This document shows, one piece after another, positions 47,278 through 55,716 of a DNA stretch of 64,000 nucleotides. The stretch comes from Agrococcus carbonis (GTDB taxonomy: Bacteria > Actinomycetota > Actinomycetes > Actinomycetales > Microbacteriaceae), in contig NZ_LT629734.1 in the NCBI RefSeq assembly GCF_900104705.1, forward strand, positions 2,108,001 to 2,172,000. Direction: 5' to 3'. A program made the position numbers and the translations under genes. Numbering within the stretch: the stretch's first letter is position 1; each line of letters opens with the position of its first letter. Under the pieces are notes generated by a model. That model did no database searches. It saw nothing but the letters and a program-made list of their open reading frames with translations, and was not told the origin of the DNA.

Positions 47278-48336
47278 CTACGCCCGCGGCGCCGCCGCGT
47301 CGCGATCCCGCAGGATCGCCGGCAGCACGATGTGCGCCTCGGGGATCATGCCGGGCGTGACGCGCTTGCGGAAGACCCAGTAGCTCCACGACTGGTAGCC
47401 GATGATGATCGGCAGGCTGATGGCCGTGATGGTCGTCATGACCCCGAGCGTGTAGGTGCCGCTCGCGGCGTTCATGAGCGTGAGGTCGAACGCCGGGTCG
47501 ATCGTCGAGGGCAGCACCTTCGGGAACATGCCCGCGAAGACGGCCGCGACGCCGAACACCCCGAACGCGGCGTAGCCGATGAACGCCCGCCCCTCCGAGC
47601 GGCGGCGCGCCTGCATCCAGCCGTACGCCCCGCCGACGACCGCGAGCCCCACGAGGGTCCACGACAGCAGTGTGCCGCCGTGCTCGAGCTGCACCCACAC
47701 CGCCCAGATCGCGGCCGGCACGAGGCACAGCGGCGCCCAGCGGGCGGCGAAGTCGGCCGAGCGCTCGCGCACCGCGCCGTCGGCCTTGAGGCCGAGGAAC
47801 GTCGCCGAGTGGGCGAGCGCGTACCCCACGACCGCGAGCCCGCCGACGATCGCCGGCCACCCGAGCCACACGAACGGCCCGCCGACGCGGTCGCCGTTGT
47901 CGTCGATCGGCAGCCCGAGCGAGGTGAGCGCGAGCATCGCGCCGACGCAGAACGCCGCGATGAGCGAGCCGACGCCGATGCCCGCCGTCCAGAGGCCTCG
48001 CCAGCGGGCGGTGTGCACCTTGCCGCGCCACTCGATCGAGACCGCGCGCAGGATGAGCCCGACGAGCGCGATCGTGAGCGGCACGTAGAGCACCGAGAAG
48101 AGCGAGGCGTACCACGCGGGGAAGGCCGCGAAGGTGCCGGCGCCGGCGGTGATGAGCCATACCTCGTTGCCGTCCCAGACGGGGCCGATGGTGTTGAGCA
48201 TCACGCGGCGCTCGCGCTCGTCGCGGGTCGCGAAGAGCATGCGGATGCCGACGCCGAGGTCGAATCCCTCGAGCAGCAGGTAGCCGATCCACAGGACGGC
48301 GATGAAGACGAACCAGGTGATCGCGAGCGGTTCCAT
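47278..48336 (-). CDS. cydB: Cytochrome bd oxidase subunit II (CydB)
   Basis: A 352-residue membrane subunit of cytochrome bd quinol oxidase, a high-affinity, non-proton-pumping terminal oxidase. Signature segments are the N-terminal WIGYLLLEGFDLGVGIRML and TIGPVWDGNEVWLITAGAGT, and the C-terminal PTIDPAFDLT-like segment followed by LGVMTTITAISLPII. About 8-9 membrane helices. It starts 14 nt after the cydA stop, so the two form one transcript. Confidence 0.97.
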   Translation of the reverse strand: MEPLAITWFVFIAVLWIGYLLLEGFDLGVGIRMLFATRDERERRVMLNTIGPVWDGNEVWLITAGAGTFAAFPAWYASLFSVLYVPLTIALVGLILRAVSIEWRGKVHTARWRGLWTAGIGVGSLIAAFCVGAMLALTSLGLPIDDNGDRVGGPFVWLGWPAIVGGLAVVGYALAHSATFLGLKADGAVRERSADFAARWAPLCLVPAAIWAVWVQLEHGGTLLSWTLVGLAVVGGAYGWMQARRRSEGRAFIGYAAFGVFGVAAVFAGMFPKVLPSTIDPAFDLTLMNAASGTYTLGVMTTITAISLPIIIGYQSWSYWVFRKRVTPGMIPEAHIVLPAILRDRDAAAPRA

Positions 48337-48350
48337 GGTCACTCCTCGAA

Positions 48351-49952
48351 TCAGTACGCGAACGCGAGCACGTCGTCGCGCCGGTCGTCGGGTCGGTCGG
48401 ATGCGTCGTGGTCGTCGCCCGCGCCGTCGTCCGGCGCGTGCGGGGCCAGCTCGGGCATCGCGCTCGCGACGCCCCCTCGCACGTACTTCGCGAGCAGGAA
48501 GAGCTCGACCACCATGAGCACCGCGTAGACGCCCGTGAGCGCGATGACCGAGAACAGCAGCTCGCCGGCGCTCACGCCGGGGGAGACGGCGGCGGCCGTG
48601 AACATGAACACGCCGTCGATGCCGGAGGGGTCGGGGTTGGGCGCGACGACGAACGGCTGGCGGCCGATCTCGGTGAAGATCCAGCCCGCGATGTTGCCGG
48701 CGAAGGGCGCGAGGATGCCGAGGATCGCGAGGCGCATGATCCAGGGCGAGGTCGGCACCGTGCCGCGGCGTGTGAGCCACAGCGCCACGACCGCGCCGAA
48801 GGCGGTGATCGCGCCGAGGCCGATCATGAGGCGGAAGCCCCAGTAGGTCACCCACATCGGCGGCACGTAGTTGACCTCGGTGCCCGCGAACGAGCCGTAG
48901 AGCTCGTCGTCGGGGATCGTCTCGCCGTACTGGTCGACGTAGTGCGGCTCGAGGTCGGTGATGCCGGGCATGTCGGCGCCCCACTCGCCGGTGCCGAGGA
49001 AGCCGAGCACGCCCGGGATCTCGATGAGCGTGATGACGTCGCGGCAGTCGGTCGAGCCCGGGTCGCCGATCGAGAGCACCGAGAACGCCGAGCCCGTGTG
49101 GCACGCGGCCTCGGCGGAGGCCATCTTCATCGGCTGCTGCTCGTACATGAGCTTGCCCTGCCAGTCGCCCGTGATGCCGGTGCCGCCGAAGGCGACGATC
49201 GCGAGCACCGCGCCGAACCGCAGCGACCAGAGCCACACGCCGTGGTCGGCCTTGTCGCGGCCCGCGACCGACGGTGCCTCTCCGATGACGACGCGACCCG
49301 ACGCATCCGTCGTGTCGATGCCGTCGTGGCGGCGCCGCCACAGGTGGTACCAGCTGATGCCGATGAGGAACATGCCGGCGACGATGAGCGAGCCGAAGAT
49401 CGTGTGCGTGAAGGCGGCGAGCGCGGTGTTGTTGGTGAGCACGGCCCACAGGTCGACCATGACGGGGCGGCCGTCGACGAGCTCGACGCCGACGGGGTGC
49501 TGCATCCACGAGTTCGCGACGATGATGAAGTACGCCGAGAACCACGAGCCGATCACCGCGCAGTAGAGCGCGGCGAGGTGCAGGCCCTTGCGCAGGCGCC
49601 CCCAGCCGAAGATCCAGATGCCGATGAAGGTCGACTCGGCGAAGAACGCGAGCAGGCCCTCGAGCGCGAGCGGGGCGCCGAAGACGTCGCCGACGAAGCG
49701 CGAGTACTCGCTCCACGCCATGCCGAACTGGAACTCCTGCACGAGGCCCGTCGCGACGCCGAGGATGAAGTTGATCAGGTAGAGCTTGCCCCAGAACTTC
49801 ACCATCCGGAGGAACTTCTCGTCGCCGGTGCGCACCCAGATGGTCTGCATGACGACGATGGCCATGCCGAGGCCGAGCGTGAGCGGCACGAGCATGAAGT
49901 GGTAGACGGTCGTGATGCCGAACTGCCACCTGGCGATGTCGAGGGCTTCCAC
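48351..49952 (-). CDS. cydA: Cytochrome bd oxidase subunit I (CydA)
   Basis: A 533-residue heme-bearing subunit. The axial His18 of heme b595 lies in TVYHFMLVPLTLG. The helices containing ANSWMQHPVG and THTIFGSLIVAG, and the quinol-site loop around MKMASAEA, are present. GRQPF replaces the more common GRQPW. The Q-loop is short, as in most non-enterobacterial enzymes. The tail is Asp/His-rich. GTG 49952 follows GGAGG. The promoter region holds three BlaI-like operators (49965-50023). Confidence 0.97.
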   Translation of the reverse strand: MEALDIARWQFGITTVYHFMLVPLTLGLGMAIVVMQTIWVRTGDEKFLRMVKFWGKLYLINFILGVATGLVQEFQFGMAWSEYSRFVGDVFGAPLALEGLLAFFAESTFIGIWIFGWGRLRKGLHLAALYCAVIGSWFSAYFIIVANSWMQHPVGVELVDGRPVMVDLWAVLTNNTALAAFTHTIFGSLIVAGMFLIGISWYHLWRRRHDGIDTTDASGRVVIGEAPSVAGRDKADHGVWLWSLRFGAVLAIVAFGGTGITGDWQGKLMYEQQPMKMASAEAACHTGSAFSVLSIGDPGSTDCRDVITLIEIPGVLGFLGTGEWGADMPGITDLEPHYVDQYGETIPDDELYGSFAGTEVNYVPPMWVTYWGFRLMIGLGAITAFGAVVALWLTRRGTVPTSPWIMRLAILGILAPFAGNIAGWIFTEIGRQPFVVAPNPDPSGIDGVFMFTAAAVSPGVSAGELLFSVIALTGVYAVLMVVELFLLAKYVRGGVASAMPELAPHAPDDGAGDDHDASDRPDDRRDDVLAFAY

Positions 49953-49964
49953 TCCGCGGCCTCC

Positions 49965-50023
49965 TTCTACGGCGCGTAGAACTGTTTCTACTCAGCATAG
50001 AAGAACTTCGACGGTTTGTAGAA
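49965..50023. promoter_or_regulatory. Three phased TTCTAC-N5-GTAGAA operators (BlaI-like)
   Basis: Inverted repeats at 49965-49981 (perfect), 49986-50002 (TTCTAC/ATAGAA) and 50007-50023 (TTCGAC/GTAGAA). All have a 5-nt spacer and start exactly 21 nt apart. They cover a cydA promoter (TTCTAC -35 at 50018-50023 and TATGCT -10 at 49994-49999 on the minus strand, 18-nt spacer). The third also covers the -35 of a divergent promoter with TACGAT at 50031-50036. TCTAC/GTAGA cores resemble BlaI/MecI operators. Confidence 0.8.
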
Positions 50024-50113
50024 CCCCGTGTACGATCGGGGTGTGTCGGATGCGCGGGTCGCGTCCGGCAGGATCGTGACCGGTCGGTCGGGGACCGGCG
50101 GAGGAGGCGCAGC

Positions 50114-50479
50114 ATGGGGACGCTCGGCGAGCTGGAGCGCGCGGTGATGGACGCCGTGTGGGATGCCGCCGCGCCCGTGAGCGCCTATGACGTGCAGGCG
50201 CAGCTCGCCGAGGCGGGGCGCGACCTCGCCGCGACGACGCTGCTGACCGTGCTCTCGCGCCTCGAGAAGAAGGGCTTCGTCGCCTCCGATCGCGCGGTGC
50301 GGCCCTACCGCTACGCGGCCGTCGCCTCGCGCGCCGACCACGTGGCCGAGCTCATGCACGAGGTGCTGCACGAGTCGCACGACCGCTCGGCCGTGCTCGA
50401 GCGCTTCGTCGGCAGCGTGTCCGCCGAGGACGCGGCGGTGCTGCGCGAGCTGCTGCGCACGGCGGGCAGCCGGGGCTGA
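50114..50479 (+). CDS. BlaI/MecI/CopY-family transcriptional repressor
   Basis: A 121-residue winged-helix repressor: MGTLGELERAVMDAVW opening, recognition region AATTLLTVLSRLEKKGFV (about residues 40-57), wing YRYAAVASRADHV, and a C-terminal dimerisation helix where BlaI is cut by its protease. GGAGGAGG precedes the ATG. It is followed 2 nt later by an M56 protease gene, the standard BlaI-BlaR pairing. Divergence from cydA with shared operators suggests it controls the oxidase and itself. A 34-codon out-of-frame ORF (50043-50147) overlaps its start. Confidence 0.93.
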   Translation: MGTLGELERAVMDAVWDAAAPVSAYDVQAQLAEAGRDLAATTLLTVLSRLEKKGFVASDRAVRPYRYAAVASRADHVAELMHEVLHESHDRSAVLERFVGSVSAEDAAVLRELLRTAGSRG

Positions 50480-50481
50480 TC

Positions 50482-51303
50482 GTGCCGGGCGGGGCGGCGG
50501 CCGGGCTGGAGGGCGCGCTCGTCATCCCCCATGGCGCGGTCGTGTGGGGCGCCGCCATGCTGTGGCTCGTCTCAGTGCTGCTCGCATGGCCGGTGCCGGT
50601 GTGGCTCGCGCGTGCCGCGTGGCCCGCCCGGGCCCCCGTGGTGGCGCTGCTCGTGTGGCAGGGCGTCGGGCTCGCCGGTGGGCTCTCGATGATCGGCGCG
50701 CTCGCGCTCTCCGGGCTCGCGCTCGCGCCAGGGCTGTCGGGCAGCGCCGGGCAGCTGTGGGCGCTCGTCCCGGCGATCGCCTTCGCCGCCTACCTGCTCG
50801 TGCACCTCGCGGTCACGATCGTGCAGGTCACGAGGCAGCGCCGGCGCCACCTGGCCCTGCTCGACCTGCTGTCGTCACCGCATCCGACCCGCGCGCGCAC
50901 GCGCGTGCTCGACGACGCGGTGCCCGTCGCCTACTGCCTGCCGCGCGGCGCGGGCTCGGTGACCGTGCTCTCGCAGGGGCTGCTCGACCGGCTCGACCCC
51001 GACGAGCTCGTCGCCGTGATCGCGCACGAGCGCGCGCACGTCGAGCAGCGGCACGACCTGCTGCTGCTCGCGTTCCGCGCCTGGCGGGCGGCGCTGCCGT
51101 GGTTCCCGATCGCCGCGCTCGCCGATGCCGAGGTCGCGGCGCTCGTCGAGATGCTCGCCGACGACCACGCCCGCCGCGAGGTGCGGGACGAGGTGCTCGC
51201 GCGGGCGATCCTGCACGTGGGCGCGAGCGGGGTGCCGGGCGCCGAGGTCGAGATGGCCGGGTCGACGCGGGGGAGCGACCGCTTCAAGCGGCTCGTCGCG
51301 TAG
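50482..51303 (+). CDS. M56-family membrane metalloprotease (BlaR/MecR-like, no sensor domain)
   Basis: A 273-residue protein with about three N-terminal membrane helices (roughly 15-37, 48-72, 85-112) and a zinc protease domain. The HEXXH motif appears as AHERAH (near residue 180), and a downstream EMLADDHARREV supplies the third ligand region. Unlike BlaR1 (about 580 residues), there is no penicillin-binding sensor domain, so the inducing signal is unknown. GTG 50482 begins 2 nt after the blaI stop. It probably cleaves the BlaI partner to relieve repression. Confidence 0.9.
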   Translation: MPGGAAAGLEGALVIPHGAVVWGAAMLWLVSVLLAWPVPVWLARAAWPARAPVVALLVWQGVGLAGGLSMIGALALSGLALAPGLSGSAGQLWALVPAIAFAAYLLVHLAVTIVQVTRQRRRHLALLDLLSSPHPTRARTRVLDDAVPVAYCLPRGAGSVTVLSQGLLDRLDPDELVAVIAHERAHVEQRHDLLLLAFRAWRAALPWFPIAALADAEVAALVEMLADDHARREVRDEVLARAILHVGASGVPGAEVEMAGSTRGSDRFKRLVA

Positions 51304-51504: not shown

Positions 51505-54500
51505 TCAGGGGAGGCGCACGAGGGCGTCGCCGGGCTCGCGGTCGGCGGCGCGGTGCGAGACGAGGATCACCGCGCGATCGGCGGTGGCGGCTCGCACGTC
51601 GGCCATCATGACGGATGCGGTGGGCGCGTCGAGGTGCGCCGTCGGCTCGTCGAGCAGGATGAGCTCGGCACGCGTCAGCAGCGCTCGCGCGACGGCGAGG
51701 CGCTGGCGCTCGCCCCCGGAGAGCGCCGAGCCGCCGGCGCCCACCCGCGTGTCGAGGCCCTCGGCGAGCGTGCCGAGCAGCGGCGCGAGCCCCGCTTGCG
51801 CGAGCGCGTCGCGCATCGTCGCCTCGTCGGGGGCATCGGCGCGGGAGCGGGCGAGCAGCAGGTTGCCGCGCAGGGTCGAGTCGAAGACGTAGGCGTCCTG
51901 CGGGCACCAGGCGACGGTCGAGCGCCAGGCGCGCTCGTCGAGGTCGGTGAGCGGGCGGCGCTCCTCGGAGGCGTCTCGAGATGACGCGATGTGTGCGTTC
52001 CGCGGCGCCGAATGCGCGCTTCGAGCCCGGTCGCGCGGGTATCCGGCATCGCGGCCACCCTCGGCGAGGATCGCGCCGCGCTCGAGCGGCAACGCTCCCA
52101 TGACGGCCGACAGGATCGTCGACTTGCCCGAGCCAGAGGGGCCGTCGAGCACGAGCCAGCGGCGCGCCTCGGCGCGGCCGGAGACGCCCGCGACCGCGGG
52201 GCGCTCGGCGCCGGGGTAGCGCACCGCCACGTCGGCCAGCTCGACTGCCGTCACGGGCGCCGGGGGCGGGGCGTCGCCCCACGCGGGGGCGGGCGCGGGC
52301 CGCAGCACCGGTCCGAGCCGGCCCAGCAGCGCGCGCATCGCCGGCACGCGGTGCACCGCGGCGACGAGATCGGTGAGCGGCTCGAGCAAGGCGAGTGCGA
52401 GCAGCGCGATGACCGACGCGCCCTCGCCCGAGAGCTCCGGCGCAAGGGCGGGCACGAGCACCGCGAGGGCGGTCACGGCGACCGTGACGACCGCCGTGCC
52501 GAGGCCCGCCGACCATGCCGCACGGCGCTCGGCGAGGGCGAGGCGATCGGCCGCGTCGTCGAGCTGCCCGAGCGCGACGCCCGCGACGCCGTTGCCCCGC
52601 AGGTCGAGCGCCGCCGACGCGAGGGCGGCGGTGCCGCGCACCATGTCGCTGCGTGCGGCGACGCGCGCCGCTGCCGCGCCGCGCTCCGAGACGATCGCGA
52701 GGGCGGCGCCGGCGGCGGTCGCGAGGATCAGGGTCGCGAGCACGACGGCCAGCAGCTGCGGCGCGACGAGCGCGGTCGTGATGCCGGTGCCGGCGATCAC
52801 GAGCACACCCACGCCGATCGGCGGCAGCACGCGCGGCAGCTGGTCGCGCAGGTCGTCGGCGAGCGTGACGAGGTAGTCGAGCGGCGCGCCGCCCTCGAGC
52901 AGCCGCCGCGACCCTGCGCCGCGCGCGGCGATCGCGCGCCATAGCCGCAGCCGCAGCCCGTCGACGGCGCGGAATGCCGCGTCGTGCGTCAGCAGCCGCT
53001 CGGCGTAGCGCCCCACCGAGCGGAAGATGCCGAACGCGCGCACCCCCACGATCGCGACGAGCAGCACCATGATGTGCTCCTCGATGCTCGCGCGCACGAT
53101 GAGCCAGCCCGACACCGCGGTGAGCGCGAGCCCGAAGCCGACGGCGAGCGCCGCCATCGCGATCGAGGCGGCCCAGCGGATGCGGTGCCCGCGCAGGAGG
53201 GCGCGGAGCGTGAGGCGGCCACCCGCCGGTCGAGTAGGCGCCGGAGGCGCCGTATCGAGACCCGCCGTCGACGAGGCAGCCGCCCCCTCCGCTGGTCGAG
53301 TAGGCGCCGGAGGCGCCGTATCGAGACCCGGGCCGTTCGCCGCTGCGAGGGTCTCGTGACGCGTGCGGCCTTCGCCCGCGCGCTCCTCGACCGACGAGGG
53401 GACGTCCTCCGCTGGTCGAGTAGGCGCCGGAGGCGCCGTATCGAGACCCGCCGTCGACGAGGCAGCCGCCCCCTCCGCTGGTCGAGTAGGCGCCGGAGGC
53501 GCCGTATCGAGACCCGGGCCGTTCGCCGCTGCGAGGGTCTCGTGACGCGAGCGGCCTTCGGCCGCGCGCTCCTCGACCGACGAGGGGGCCTCTTCCGCTG
53601 GTCGAGTAGGCGCCGCAGGCGCCGTATCGAGACCTACCGCTGCCGTCTCGATACGCGCGCTTCGCGCGCTACTCGACGAGCGTGCTGGGGCGCCGGCTGC
53701 GAGGGTCTCGTGACGCGGGGGGCCTTCGGCCGCGCGCTCCTCGACCGACGAGGGGGCGGTACCGACGCGCAGGGTCATCGTCGCGAGGGCGGTCGTCTCG
53801 GGCTCGTGGCTCGCGAGCACCACGACGCGGCCAGGCGCCCTGCGGAGGATCGCCGCGCGCACGCGATCGGCCGACTCGCGGTCGAGGTGCGCGGTCGGCT
53901 CGTCGAGCACGAGCACGCGCGCGCCGGCGTCGGCGCGGGCGAGCGCGCGGGCGACCGCGAGCCGGCGCTGCTCGCCGGGGCTGAGCTCGGGCACCGCCGC
54001 ATCGGCGACGTGGCCGAGCCCCAGCTCCTCGAGCGCCGCGATCGGATCGGCGCCGTACAGCGCGAGCTCGTCGCGCGGCGTGTCCGCGAAGGCGCGCGGG
54101 GCCTGCGGGGCCCAGCCCACCGCATCCGCCCCCGTGCCGACGACGCTGCCGCCGACGTGCGCGTCGGCGGGCAGAGCGCCCGTCAGGGCGGCGAGCAGCG
54201 TCGACTTGCCCGCGCCCGAGGGGCCGGCGACCGAGACGATCCCCTCGAGGTCGGCGCTGATGCCCGCGAGGGTGGGGGTGTCGCGGCCGGCGTAGTGGAC
54301 GGTGAGGTCGGTGAGGCGGATGCGGGGGGTAGCGGTGGGGGTCTCGTGACGCGTGCCGCCTTCGGCGGCGCGCTCCTCGACCGACGAGGGGACGGTGGCG
54401 GCGGTGGGGGTCTCGTGACGCGTGCCGCCTTCGGCGGCGCGCTCCTCGACCGACGAGGGGACGGTGGCGGCGCCGGGGGTCTCGTGACGCGTGCCGCCTT

Positions 54501-55590
54501 CGGCGGCGCGCTCCTCGACCGACGGGCTGGCCGTGCGGACGTCCGCGCGCGCCGGCCGGCGCAGGATCTCCTGCGCGCGCTCGAGCGCCGCGAGGCCGTC
54601 CTGCGAGGCGTGGAAGGCGGTGCCGACCTGGCGCAGCGCGCTGTAGGCCTCGGGCGCGAGGATGAGCGCGAGGAGCGCCGGCTCGAGCTCCATCGTGCCG
54701 TTCAGCAGCCGCAGGCCCAGGAAGACCGCGACGATCGCGACCGAGATCGTCGCGACGAGCTCGAGCGCGAGCGCCGAGAGGAACGCCCAGCGCAGCGTCT
54801 CCTGCGTGCGCTCGCGGTAGCCGCGCTGCAGCTGCTCGAGGGCGGCCGCCTGCTCGTCGACCCGGCCGAGCCCGACGAGCACCGGCAGGCCGCGCGCGAG
54901 CTCGGCGAGGTGGTCGGCGAGCCGCGTGAGCGCCGAGAGCGCCTCGTCGGTGCGCTGCTGCGTGTGCTTGCCGATGAGCACCATGAAGAAGGGGATGAGC
55001 GGCACGGTGAGCACGATGATGACGGCGCTCAGCCAATCTGCGCCGAGCACCCGGATCCCGACGAGCAGCGGCACGACCGCCGCCGCGATCGTCGCCGGCA
55101 GCGACTGCACGTAGTAGTCGTCGAGGTCGTCGAGGCCGTCGCTCGCGAGCACCGCCGTGCCGCCGCCCGCGACGTCGCCGTCGGCGAGCTGCCGCCACAG
55201 CCGCCCGCGGATCGAGCGCTTCACGCCGATCGCGATGCGCCGCGCCGCGACCGACGTGCCCCACTCGGCGCCGGCGCGCAGCACCGCGCCCGCGAGCCCC
55301 AGCACGACGATCAGCCGCGTGGTCTCGGCCGAGAGGTCGCCGGCCGTGAGCGCCGCGATCCCGCGGGCGACGGCCTCGGCGACGAGCACGAGCCCCGCCG
55401 CGCGGAGCGCCGCGAGGAGCCCCAGCAGGTAGACCTGCGACCGCGGCACGGGCCCGAGCGCCGGGCGGCGGAAGCCGGGTGCGGATGCGGTGCGCTCGGC
55501 CTCGATGACCCAGGGATCGACCGAGCGCGCGGGCCCCTCCGGGGCCGCCTCGCGCTCCTTCGGGGTGCTGTCGGCCGGTCGCGCGCTCAC
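51505..55590 (-). CDS. cydDC: Fused CydD-CydC ABC exporter with repeat-derived linkers
   Basis: A 1361-residue single chain carrying both halves of the heterodimeric exporter needed for cytochrome bd assembly (thiol export in the periplasm direction). CydD half: membrane domain about 50-340, nucleotide domain 430-600 (Walker A GPSGAGKST, signature LSPGEQRRLAVARAL, Walker B VLVLDEPTAHLD). CydC half: membrane domain about 795-1080, nucleotide domain 1120-1361 (GPSGSGKST, LSGGERQRLAVARALL). Linkers at about 353-416 and 610-787 are made of tandem repeats. GTG 55590 follows GGGAGG. Most relatives encode CydD and CydC separately. Confidence 0.93.
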   Translation of the reverse strand: MSARPADSTPKEREAAPEGPARSVDPWVIEAERTASAPGFRRPALGPVPRSQVYLLGLLAALRAAGLVLVAEAVARGIAALTAGDLSAETTRLIVVLGLAGAVLRAGAEWGTSVAARRIAIGVKRSIRGRLWRQLADGDVAGGGTAVLASDGLDDLDDYYVQSLPATIAAAVVPLLVGIRVLGADWLSAVIIVLTVPLIPFFMVLIGKHTQQRTDEALSALTRLADHLAELARGLPVLVGLGRVDEQAAALEQLQRGYRERTQETLRWAFLSALALELVATISVAIVAVFLGLRLLNGTMELEPALLALILAPEAYSALRQVGTAFHASQDGLAALERAQEILRRPARADVRTASPSVEERAAEGGTRHETPGAATVPSSVEERAAEGGTRHETPTAATVPSSVEERAAEGGTRHETPTATPRIRLTDLTVHYAGRDTPTLAGISADLEGIVSVAGPSGAGKSTLLAALTGALPADAHVGGSVVGTGADAVGWAPQAPRAFADTPRDELALYGADPIAALEELGLGHVADAAVPELSPGEQRRLAVARALARADAGARVLVLDEPTAHLDRESADRVRAAILRRAPGRVVVLASHEPETTALATMTLRVGTAPSSVEERAAEGPPRHETLAAGAPARSSSSARSARIETAAVGLDTAPAAPTRPAEEAPSSVEERAAEGRSRHETLAAANGPGLDTAPPAPTRPAEGAAASSTAGLDTAPPAPTRPAEDVPSSVEERAGEGRTRHETLAAANGPGLDTAPPAPTRPAEGAAASSTAGLDTAPPAPTRPAGGRLTLRALLRGHRIRWAASIAMAALAVGFGLALTAVSGWLIVRASIEEHIMVLLVAIVGVRAFGIFRSVGRYAERLLTHDAAFRAVDGLRLRLWRAIAARGAGSRRLLEGGAPLDYLVTLADDLRDQLPRVLPPIGVGVLVIAGTGITTALVAPQLLAVVLATLILATAAGAALAIVSERGAAAARVAARSDMVRGTAALASAALDLRGNGVAGVALGQLDDAADRLALAERRAAWSAGLGTAVVTVAVTALAVLVPALAPELSGEGASVIALLALALLEPLTDLVAAVHRVPAMRALLGRLGPVLRPAPAPAWGDAPPPAPVTAVELADVAVRYPGAERPAVAGVSGRAEARRWLVLDGPSGSGKSTILSAVMGALPLERGAILAEGGRDAGYPRDRARSAHSAPRNAHIASSRDASEERRPLTDLDERAWRSTVAWCPQDAYVFDSTLRGNLLLARSRADAPDEATMRDALAQAGLAPLLGTLAEGLDTRVGAGGSALSGGERQRLAVARALLTRAELILLDEPTAHLDAPTASVMMADVRAATADRAVILVSHRAADREPGDALVRLP
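53228..53758 (-). repeat. Tandem 186-bp repeats inside cydDC (REP-derived)
   Basis: Units start at 53228, 53414 and 53600, exactly 186 bp (62 codons) apart; the third is diverged and shorter. Each unit contains two GGTCGAGTAGGCGCC-type elements and one GGGTCTCGTGACGCG-to-CTCCTCGACC element. They encode GLDTAPPAPTRPAEG and SSVEERAAEG-R-RHETLAA segments in the CydD-CydC linker. Confidence 0.9.
54341..54535 (-). repeat. Tandem 69-bp repeats inside cydDC (REP-derived)
   Basis: Three units start at 54341, 54410 and 54479, exactly 69 bp (23 codons) apart. They encode SSVEERAAEGGTRHETPTAA-type peptides between the CydD membrane domain and its nucleotide domain. Confidence 0.9.
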
Positions 55591-55716
55591 CCGTCCATCC
55601 TCCCAGACCGGCACCGGCGCGCCGCGGGCGTCCGCTGCGAGCGCACACCTCAGGAGACGCCGAGATCTCGCGTCGTCGGGTCGCGGCGACGGCGACCTCG
55701 GCCGTAGCCTCGCCCC

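Follow-up and report, generated by a model that had tools for sequence, protein, structure and literature searches.

A predicted BlaI-M56 switch on cytochrome bd in Agrococcus carbonis, with three palindromic operators between the divergent gene pairs

The window analyzed here, 64,000 bp of contig NZ_LT629734.1 of Agrococcus carbonis, contains the genes for the terminal oxidase cytochrome bd, cydAB, and, divergent from them, the genes for a BlaI-like repressor and a membrane metalloprotease, blaI-M56. Three 17-bp palindromes with 5-nt centers are flanked by these two pairs. The arrangement is best explained by a divergent, self-regulating BlaI-M56 switch acting on cydAB and on blaI-M56 itself, to which a probability of roughly 70% may be given. 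The three sites were observed correctly and are very likely functional.

49965 to 49981, operator 1: TTCTACGGCGCGTAGAA, the perfect palindrome TTCTAC-GGCGC-GTAGAA, ending at the cydA ribosome-binding site.
49986 to 50002, operator 2: TTCTACTCAGCATAGAA, 1 mismatch, containing the putative −10 of cydA.
50007 to 50023, operator 3: TTCGACGGTTTGTAGAA, 1 mismatch, with half-sites that double as the putative −35 of blaI (plus strand) and of cydA (minus strand).
48351 to 49952, minus strand: cydA, cytochrome bd subunit I, GTG start (PF01654 Cyt_bd_oxida_I, 486.8 bits).
47278 to 48348, minus strand: cydB, cytochrome bd subunit II, start approximate (TIGR00203, 250.7 bits).
50114 to 50479, plus strand: blaI-like repressor gene, 121 amino acids, no cysteine (PF03965 Penicillinase_R, 86.6 bits).
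50482 to 51303, plus strand: M56/BlaR1-type membrane metalloprotease, 273 amino acids, HERAH motif (M48 match above and M56 match below the cut-off).

The consensus of the operators between 49965 and 50023 is TTC(T/G)AC-N5-(G/A)TAGAA. An earlier note on this DNA had described three TTCTAC-N5-GTAGAA repeats; their number and the 5-nt centers stand, but only one of them is perfect and the other two carry 1 mismatch each. The starts at 49965, 49986, and 50007 are exactly 21 bp apart, as had been noted. With up to 3 mismatches allowed, the pattern occurs at 11 places in the window compared to 1.61 expected, a number reached in 0 of 100 shuffles, and across the genome, a single contig of 2,773,210 bp, no place besides operators 1 to 3 has fewer than 2 mismatches. 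With up to 2 mismatches, 43 places were found versus 97 for the reversed pattern, so that weak sites are uninformative in this genome. A terminator scan flagged a hairpin at operator 1 on the plus strand. An RNA hairpin that sequesters the ribosome-binding site of cydA is unlikely; its arm overlaps AAGGAGG by two bases in the cydA mRNA.

Promoter elements were assigned by eye.

49994 to 49999, minus strand: putative −10 of cydA, TATGCT, with an 18-nt spacer to TTCTAC at 50023 to 50018 (putative −35).
50031 to 50036, plus strand: putative −10 of blaI, TACGAT, with an 18-nt spacer to TTCGAC at 50007 to 50012 (putative −35).
49960 to 49966, minus strand: ribosome-binding site of cydA, AAGGAGG, sharing 2 nt with operator 1.

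The single mismatch of operator 2 generates TATGCT on the cydA strand, GCATAGAA is present in 9 of the 14 loci of the genus that were read, including this one, and TAGG-T occupies the position of the putative blaI −10 in L006, L008, L009, and L010. A strict sigma-70 promoter scan found no promoter, and for this reason the assignments are plausible only. The previously claimed overlap of operators 2 and 3 with the −10 and −35 of cydA, and of operator 3 with the −35 of blaI, agrees with these boxes but gained no hit in the strict scan. Operator 3 would plausibly act as a −35 site in both directions.

The BlaI-like protein matches PF03965 over residues 4 to 115 (86.6 bits, cut-off 22.6), which is a full-length BlaI/MecI-family domain, and it is the sole match to this family in the genome. 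Palindromic operators between the own gene and the target, a trait of the family, are present, and binding of BlaI to them is predicted. Phe98 is invariant in 20 of 20 sequences and aligns with the LNF cleavage motif of MecI, making it the putative P1' residue of a protease-sensitive site. A profile of the BlaI proteins at these loci matched PDB 2g9w, which we take to be Rv1846c, at 3.4e-37. The M56 protein is an HExxH gluzincin protease with transmembrane helices 1 to 3 that matches BlaR1 over these helices and the protease only. No Pfam match to a penicillin-binding sensor exists in its 273 residues, in agreement with the earlier note, and the alignment of M56 proteins, from which that of L169 was left out, shows no fourth, C-terminal transmembrane helix after the protease in this clade, so that no C-terminal extracytoplasmic domain is expected.

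These features bear on a classical sensing of the cell wall or of beta-lactams that happens to control respiration as well. Membership in the family and the statement in an excerpt of PMC5473688 that BlaI of Mycobacterium tuberculosis also controls blaC would agree with such sensing, which is nevertheless highly improbable given an M56 protein with neither a hit to a penicillin-binding domain nor, in this clade, a transmembrane helix following the protease.

The gene arrangement was followed through related genomes. A profile search of contigs with the BlaI alignment yielded at least 593 stretches and at least 577 relatives, of which the best 80 were evaluated. An M56 gene accompanies blaI in all 80, a divergent cydA in 77, and an operator in 78; L212 has no operator and L166 was not judged. 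Among the genera represented are Agrococcus, Microbacterium, Kocuria, Arthrobacter, Brevibacterium, and Dietzia. In 60 genomes, this one and 59 relatives, BlaI was found in 29 (E 1e-10) and CydA in 55 (E 1e-20), and all 19 relatives with the same type of CydA (bit score above 500) carry BlaI, in G005 on a different contig than CydA. Within the genus, with relatedness ignored, BlaI occurs in 14 of 14 genomes with this CydA type versus 0 of 9 with other types. These nine (G001, G007, G008, G009, G011, G013, G017, G021, and G023) possess another cytochrome bd, whose CydA is at most about 57% identical, and gave no hit to BlaI at E 1e-10, which suggests that the whole module was replaced.

The operators are conserved at the same position. 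In 21 of the 25 cydA-blaI intergenic regions read, a site of the TTCTAC type is present with no more than 1 mismatch, TACTAC- or TACGAC-type sites were read by eye in L029 to L031, and the intergenic region of L022 contains no operator site. Hence, the repeats are kept in relatives sharing the gene order, with L022 and L212 as exceptions, and the earlier claim that BlaI controls cydAB gains support from this conservation of synteny and operators. The first site is retained with at most 1 mismatch in all 14 loci of the genus, while operator 2 has decayed in L011 and has no counterpart at the expected register in L026 and L027. An exact 21/21 register exists in 10 of these 14 loci (L011 counted despite its decayed middle site), the exceptions being L012, L016, L026, and L027, and also in some Microbacterium. 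Elsewhere, spacings are 17 bp (Brevibacterium), 21 to 26 bp, or 40 to 62 bp, with a further site up to 190 bp. Several sites per promoter are common and the 21-bp phasing is clade-specific; the helical phasing that had been put forward is not a general feature and was rejected as such.

The association was also approached from cydA. A search for CydA in this genome and others of the class, 69 in all, gave 35 hits at E 1e-40. From 32 of these genomes, 40 cydA loci were fetched, representing every hit genome outside of the order plus G037; the own locus, those of G041 and G053, and a second one of G452 were left out. BlaI and M56 are located beside cydA in 5 of the 40. Sites of the TTCTAC, TACTAC, or TACGAC type with at most 1 mismatch occur in 11 loci and are missing from 29. 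All 20 site starts, some of them overlapping, are within 150 bp upstream of cydA (6,000 bp in total, a limit chosen after a first look at the loci) and none in the 340,765 bp elsewhere, compared to 0 upstream and 5 elsewhere for the reversed control in the same loci. Sites were found in 5 of 5 loci with a local BlaI versus 6 of 35 without (p 7e-4). All 4 cydA loci fetched from family f22 (L254, L255, L259, and L278) have TACTAC-N5-GTCGTA-type sites 31 to 61 bp upstream of cydA and no local BlaI, which fits a distant BlaI.

Starting from the pattern alone, a strict tandem arrangement was found in 85 of 398 genomes of the family, with 0 for the reversed control in the columns listed; A. carbonis is not among the 85 because it has two imperfect sites. 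Of 30 loci with this tandem pattern, 21 are at cydA (19 with BlaI and M56), 8, all from genus g80, are between BlaI-M56 and a gene for the copper chaperone PCuAC, and 1 is at a YcnI-like gene (assigned by eye, without a match in Pfam or NCBIfam) that precedes CopC. In L043 and L044 (genus g93), the tandem operators are at cydA and BlaI is encoded elsewhere in the genome. Single exact sites were sought in 44 genomes, many of them picked for their tandem hits, and numbered 114 versus 28 for the reversed pattern, so that a share of the lone exact sites may be due to chance. They occur in 34 of the 44 genomes, all of which possess BlaI; of the 10 genomes without sites, 2 have BlaI.

This distribution argues against another regulator that uses the palindromes with BlaI as a bystander, the least probable of the explanations weighed here. 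One genome, G042, which retains BlaI but not the motif, would be consistent with a bystander role. On the other side, exact sites are limited to BlaI-bearing genomes among the 44, and the sites remain with BlaI at loci that lack cydA (L193, L201, g80, and L121). A direct sensing of a small ligand by BlaI, in the way CopY responds to copper and with M56 as a modulator only, is unlikely, too. The best NCBIfam match of BlaI is indeed CopY_TcrY (TIGR02698), and G117 and G179 have an operator at cydA with BlaI elsewhere, but M56 stands beside BlaI in each of the best 80 of at least 593 loci and the BlaI of the window contains no cysteine. An identity as a CopY/TcrY copper repressor, proteins with a C-terminal cysteine motif, was rejected on the score of 33.6 bits at a cut-off of 121.95 and on the cysteine-free sequence.

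All places with exact sites outside of the cyd loci already read were fetched, except for a copy at a contig end in G216. These 40 loci comprise 7 further cyd loci (cydA confirmed by tblastn), 2 with BlaI-M56 but without cydA (L111 and L121), and 31 others. One of the two, L121, and L122 come from the same genome, G356, in which BlaI-M56 has one operator and no adjoining cydA and a cydA with two operators is on another contig. In 20 of the 31, the site is beside energy or copper genes: flavohemoglobin (hmp) in 5, ATP synthase in 3, pta-ackA in 3, ctaC-ctaD in 2, YcnI-like/CopC in 2, a nitrite-reductase-like operon with YceI in 2, and hemQ-hemH, YceI/ccdA, and pyrophosphatase in 1 each. Gene identity was determined by Pfam on representatives and by tblastn for the rest, and the grouping was made after the genes had been seen, without a formal null. 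The remaining 11 (L097, L098, L103, L114, L115, L119, L124, L125, L126, L129, and L133) have no visible link to energy or copper. Recurrence is a firmer point, with hmp targets in four genera and ctaC and atpB in two each; pta-ackA is from one genus only. Sites at genes for NO detoxification, ATP synthase, the aa3 oxidase, acetate, and copper may perhaps represent an energy regulon in the relatives, reduced to one target here. Further targets in A. carbonis were rejected: when 21 proteins of relatives were used as tblastn queries (E 1e-4), no hit was obtained in 39 stretches that take in the remaining 40 places with 2 mismatches or fewer and about 1.2 kb around them, and weak sites are rarer than those of the reversed pattern.

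The copper genes raise the possibility that the same wiring of BlaI and operators responds to copper shortage, with the copper-dependent aa3 oxidase swapped for the copper-free bd oxidase and copper delivery raised. Tandem sites are present at copper genes in three small-genome genera. In g80 (L045 to L052, genomes of 1.6 to 1.8 Mb), BlaI-M56 with the same operators faces PCuAC instead of cydA in 8 of 8 loci; a Dyp-type peroxidase gene follows in L048. A YcnI-like gene, by eye, and CopC follow the sites in L053/L112 and L123, the latter from a 1.4-Mb genome (G291) with tandem operators ahead of both genes and a convergent BlaI-M56 pair just beyond, next to CopC. The ctaC-ctaD genes have sites in two genera and, according to part of PMC12140626, copper starvation disables aa3 in M. 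tuberculosis and bd sustains respiration. On the other hand, hmp, ATP synthase, pta-ackA, and ppa, which make up most of the other targets, are not copper genes, BlaI has no cysteine, and 0 of the 40 weak sites in A. carbonis are at copper query genes. Of the specific candidates for the signal, copper shortage has the best support and is yet rather improbable; the confirmation of PCuAC at all 8 g80 loci makes it slightly more probable.

In the self-regulating switch, BlaI dimers would occupy the three operators over the −10 and −35 of cydA, the edge of the ribosome-binding site, and the −35 of blaI, and would repress, rather than activate, both cydAB and blaI-M56. A respiratory or energy-related membrane signal may lead the M56 zinc protease to cleave BlaI near the invariant Phe98, which would lift repression and allow the copper-free cytochrome bd to take over oxygen reduction, and the induced blaI-M56 pair would then reset the switch. 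This dedicated and compact switch on cytochrome bd perhaps belongs to a wider regulon of respiration. More tentatively, at somewhat below even odds, BlaI-M56 of actinomycetes might mainly be a respiratory and energy circuit and not one for antibiotics, in which a protease without an external sensor reads the respiratory chain and destroys BlaI, so that aa3 is swapped for bd and ATP synthase, NO defense, acetate, heme, and copper genes are retuned. This circuit would have shrunk to cydAB in this Agrococcus, with an M56 ending near the position of the BlaR1 self-cut (Ser283-Phe284), as if pre-processed.

Beyond M56 lies a further gene for the function of cytochrome bd.

51505 to 55617, minus strand: cydDC fusion (CydD, then CydC), start approximate, convergent with M56 and outside of the divergon.

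It had been placed downstream of cydA; although encoded on the same strand as cydAB, it lies upstream of these genes and apart from them. The best operator match between 55400 and 55900 has 5 mismatches, and cydDC was rejected as part of the target since no operator is near it. Between the CydD and CydC parts (53216 to 53757), DNA repeats within the open frame, five of 47 nt, three of 62 nt, and one tandem pair of 186 nt, encode a repetitive linker, SSVEERAAEG..RHET.

A control of cytochrome bd by BlaI is not new in kind. PMC5473688, in the part available, refers to Sala et al. 2009 when it states that the promoters of cytochrome bd and ATP synthase are bound by BlaI of M. tuberculosis and that mycobacterial BlaR is without a sensor. 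Excerpts of PMC12565901 report a gel shift at the promoter of Rv1303, which is co-transcribed with ATP synthase genes, and of PMC5874750 name BlaI as a regulator of the atp operon. The excerpt of PMC11561320 names blaI without bd, "BlaI" is absent from PMC8125079 and PMC7719681, and apparent matches to blaI in the portion seen of PMC10581053 are blaIII. Among the listings and excerpts of open-licence papers that were covered, no description of a cydA-BlaI-M56 divergon or of its wider regulon was found. The divergon links a well-known antibiotic-resistance circuit to the choice of the terminal oxidase in many actinomycetes, and harmless one-target systems such as those of Agrococcus and Arthrobacter are suited to ask which stimulus a BlaR-type protease without a sensor responds to. 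The answer would also be relevant to the bd oxidase of mycobacteria.

Among known systems, BlaI (Rv1846c)-BlaR (Rv1845c) of M. tuberculosis is similar in the combination of BlaI with a sensor-less BlaR and in a BlaI that is stated to bind the bd and ATP synthase promoters (PMC5473688, in part). Agrococcus differs in that its divergon is dedicated to a single target cluster. Its M56 is also without the last transmembrane helix, a comparison that did not include Rv1845c itself. Presumably, blaI of M. tuberculosis does not adjoin cydA and has a wider regulon that includes blaC. The BlaI-BlaR1 and MecI-MecR1 systems of Staphylococcus aureus, with their divergent layout, share the repressor plus membrane metalloprotease, the Phe at the putative cleavage site, and the BlaR1-like transmembrane helices 1 to 3 with the protease fold, whereas the M56 protein of Agrococcus has no sensor domain and the target is an oxidase instead of a beta-lactamase or PBP2a. 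CopY of lactic acid bacteria belongs to the same repressor family (TIGR02698, sub-threshold), but BlaI of Agrococcus is free of cysteines and is paired with a protease.
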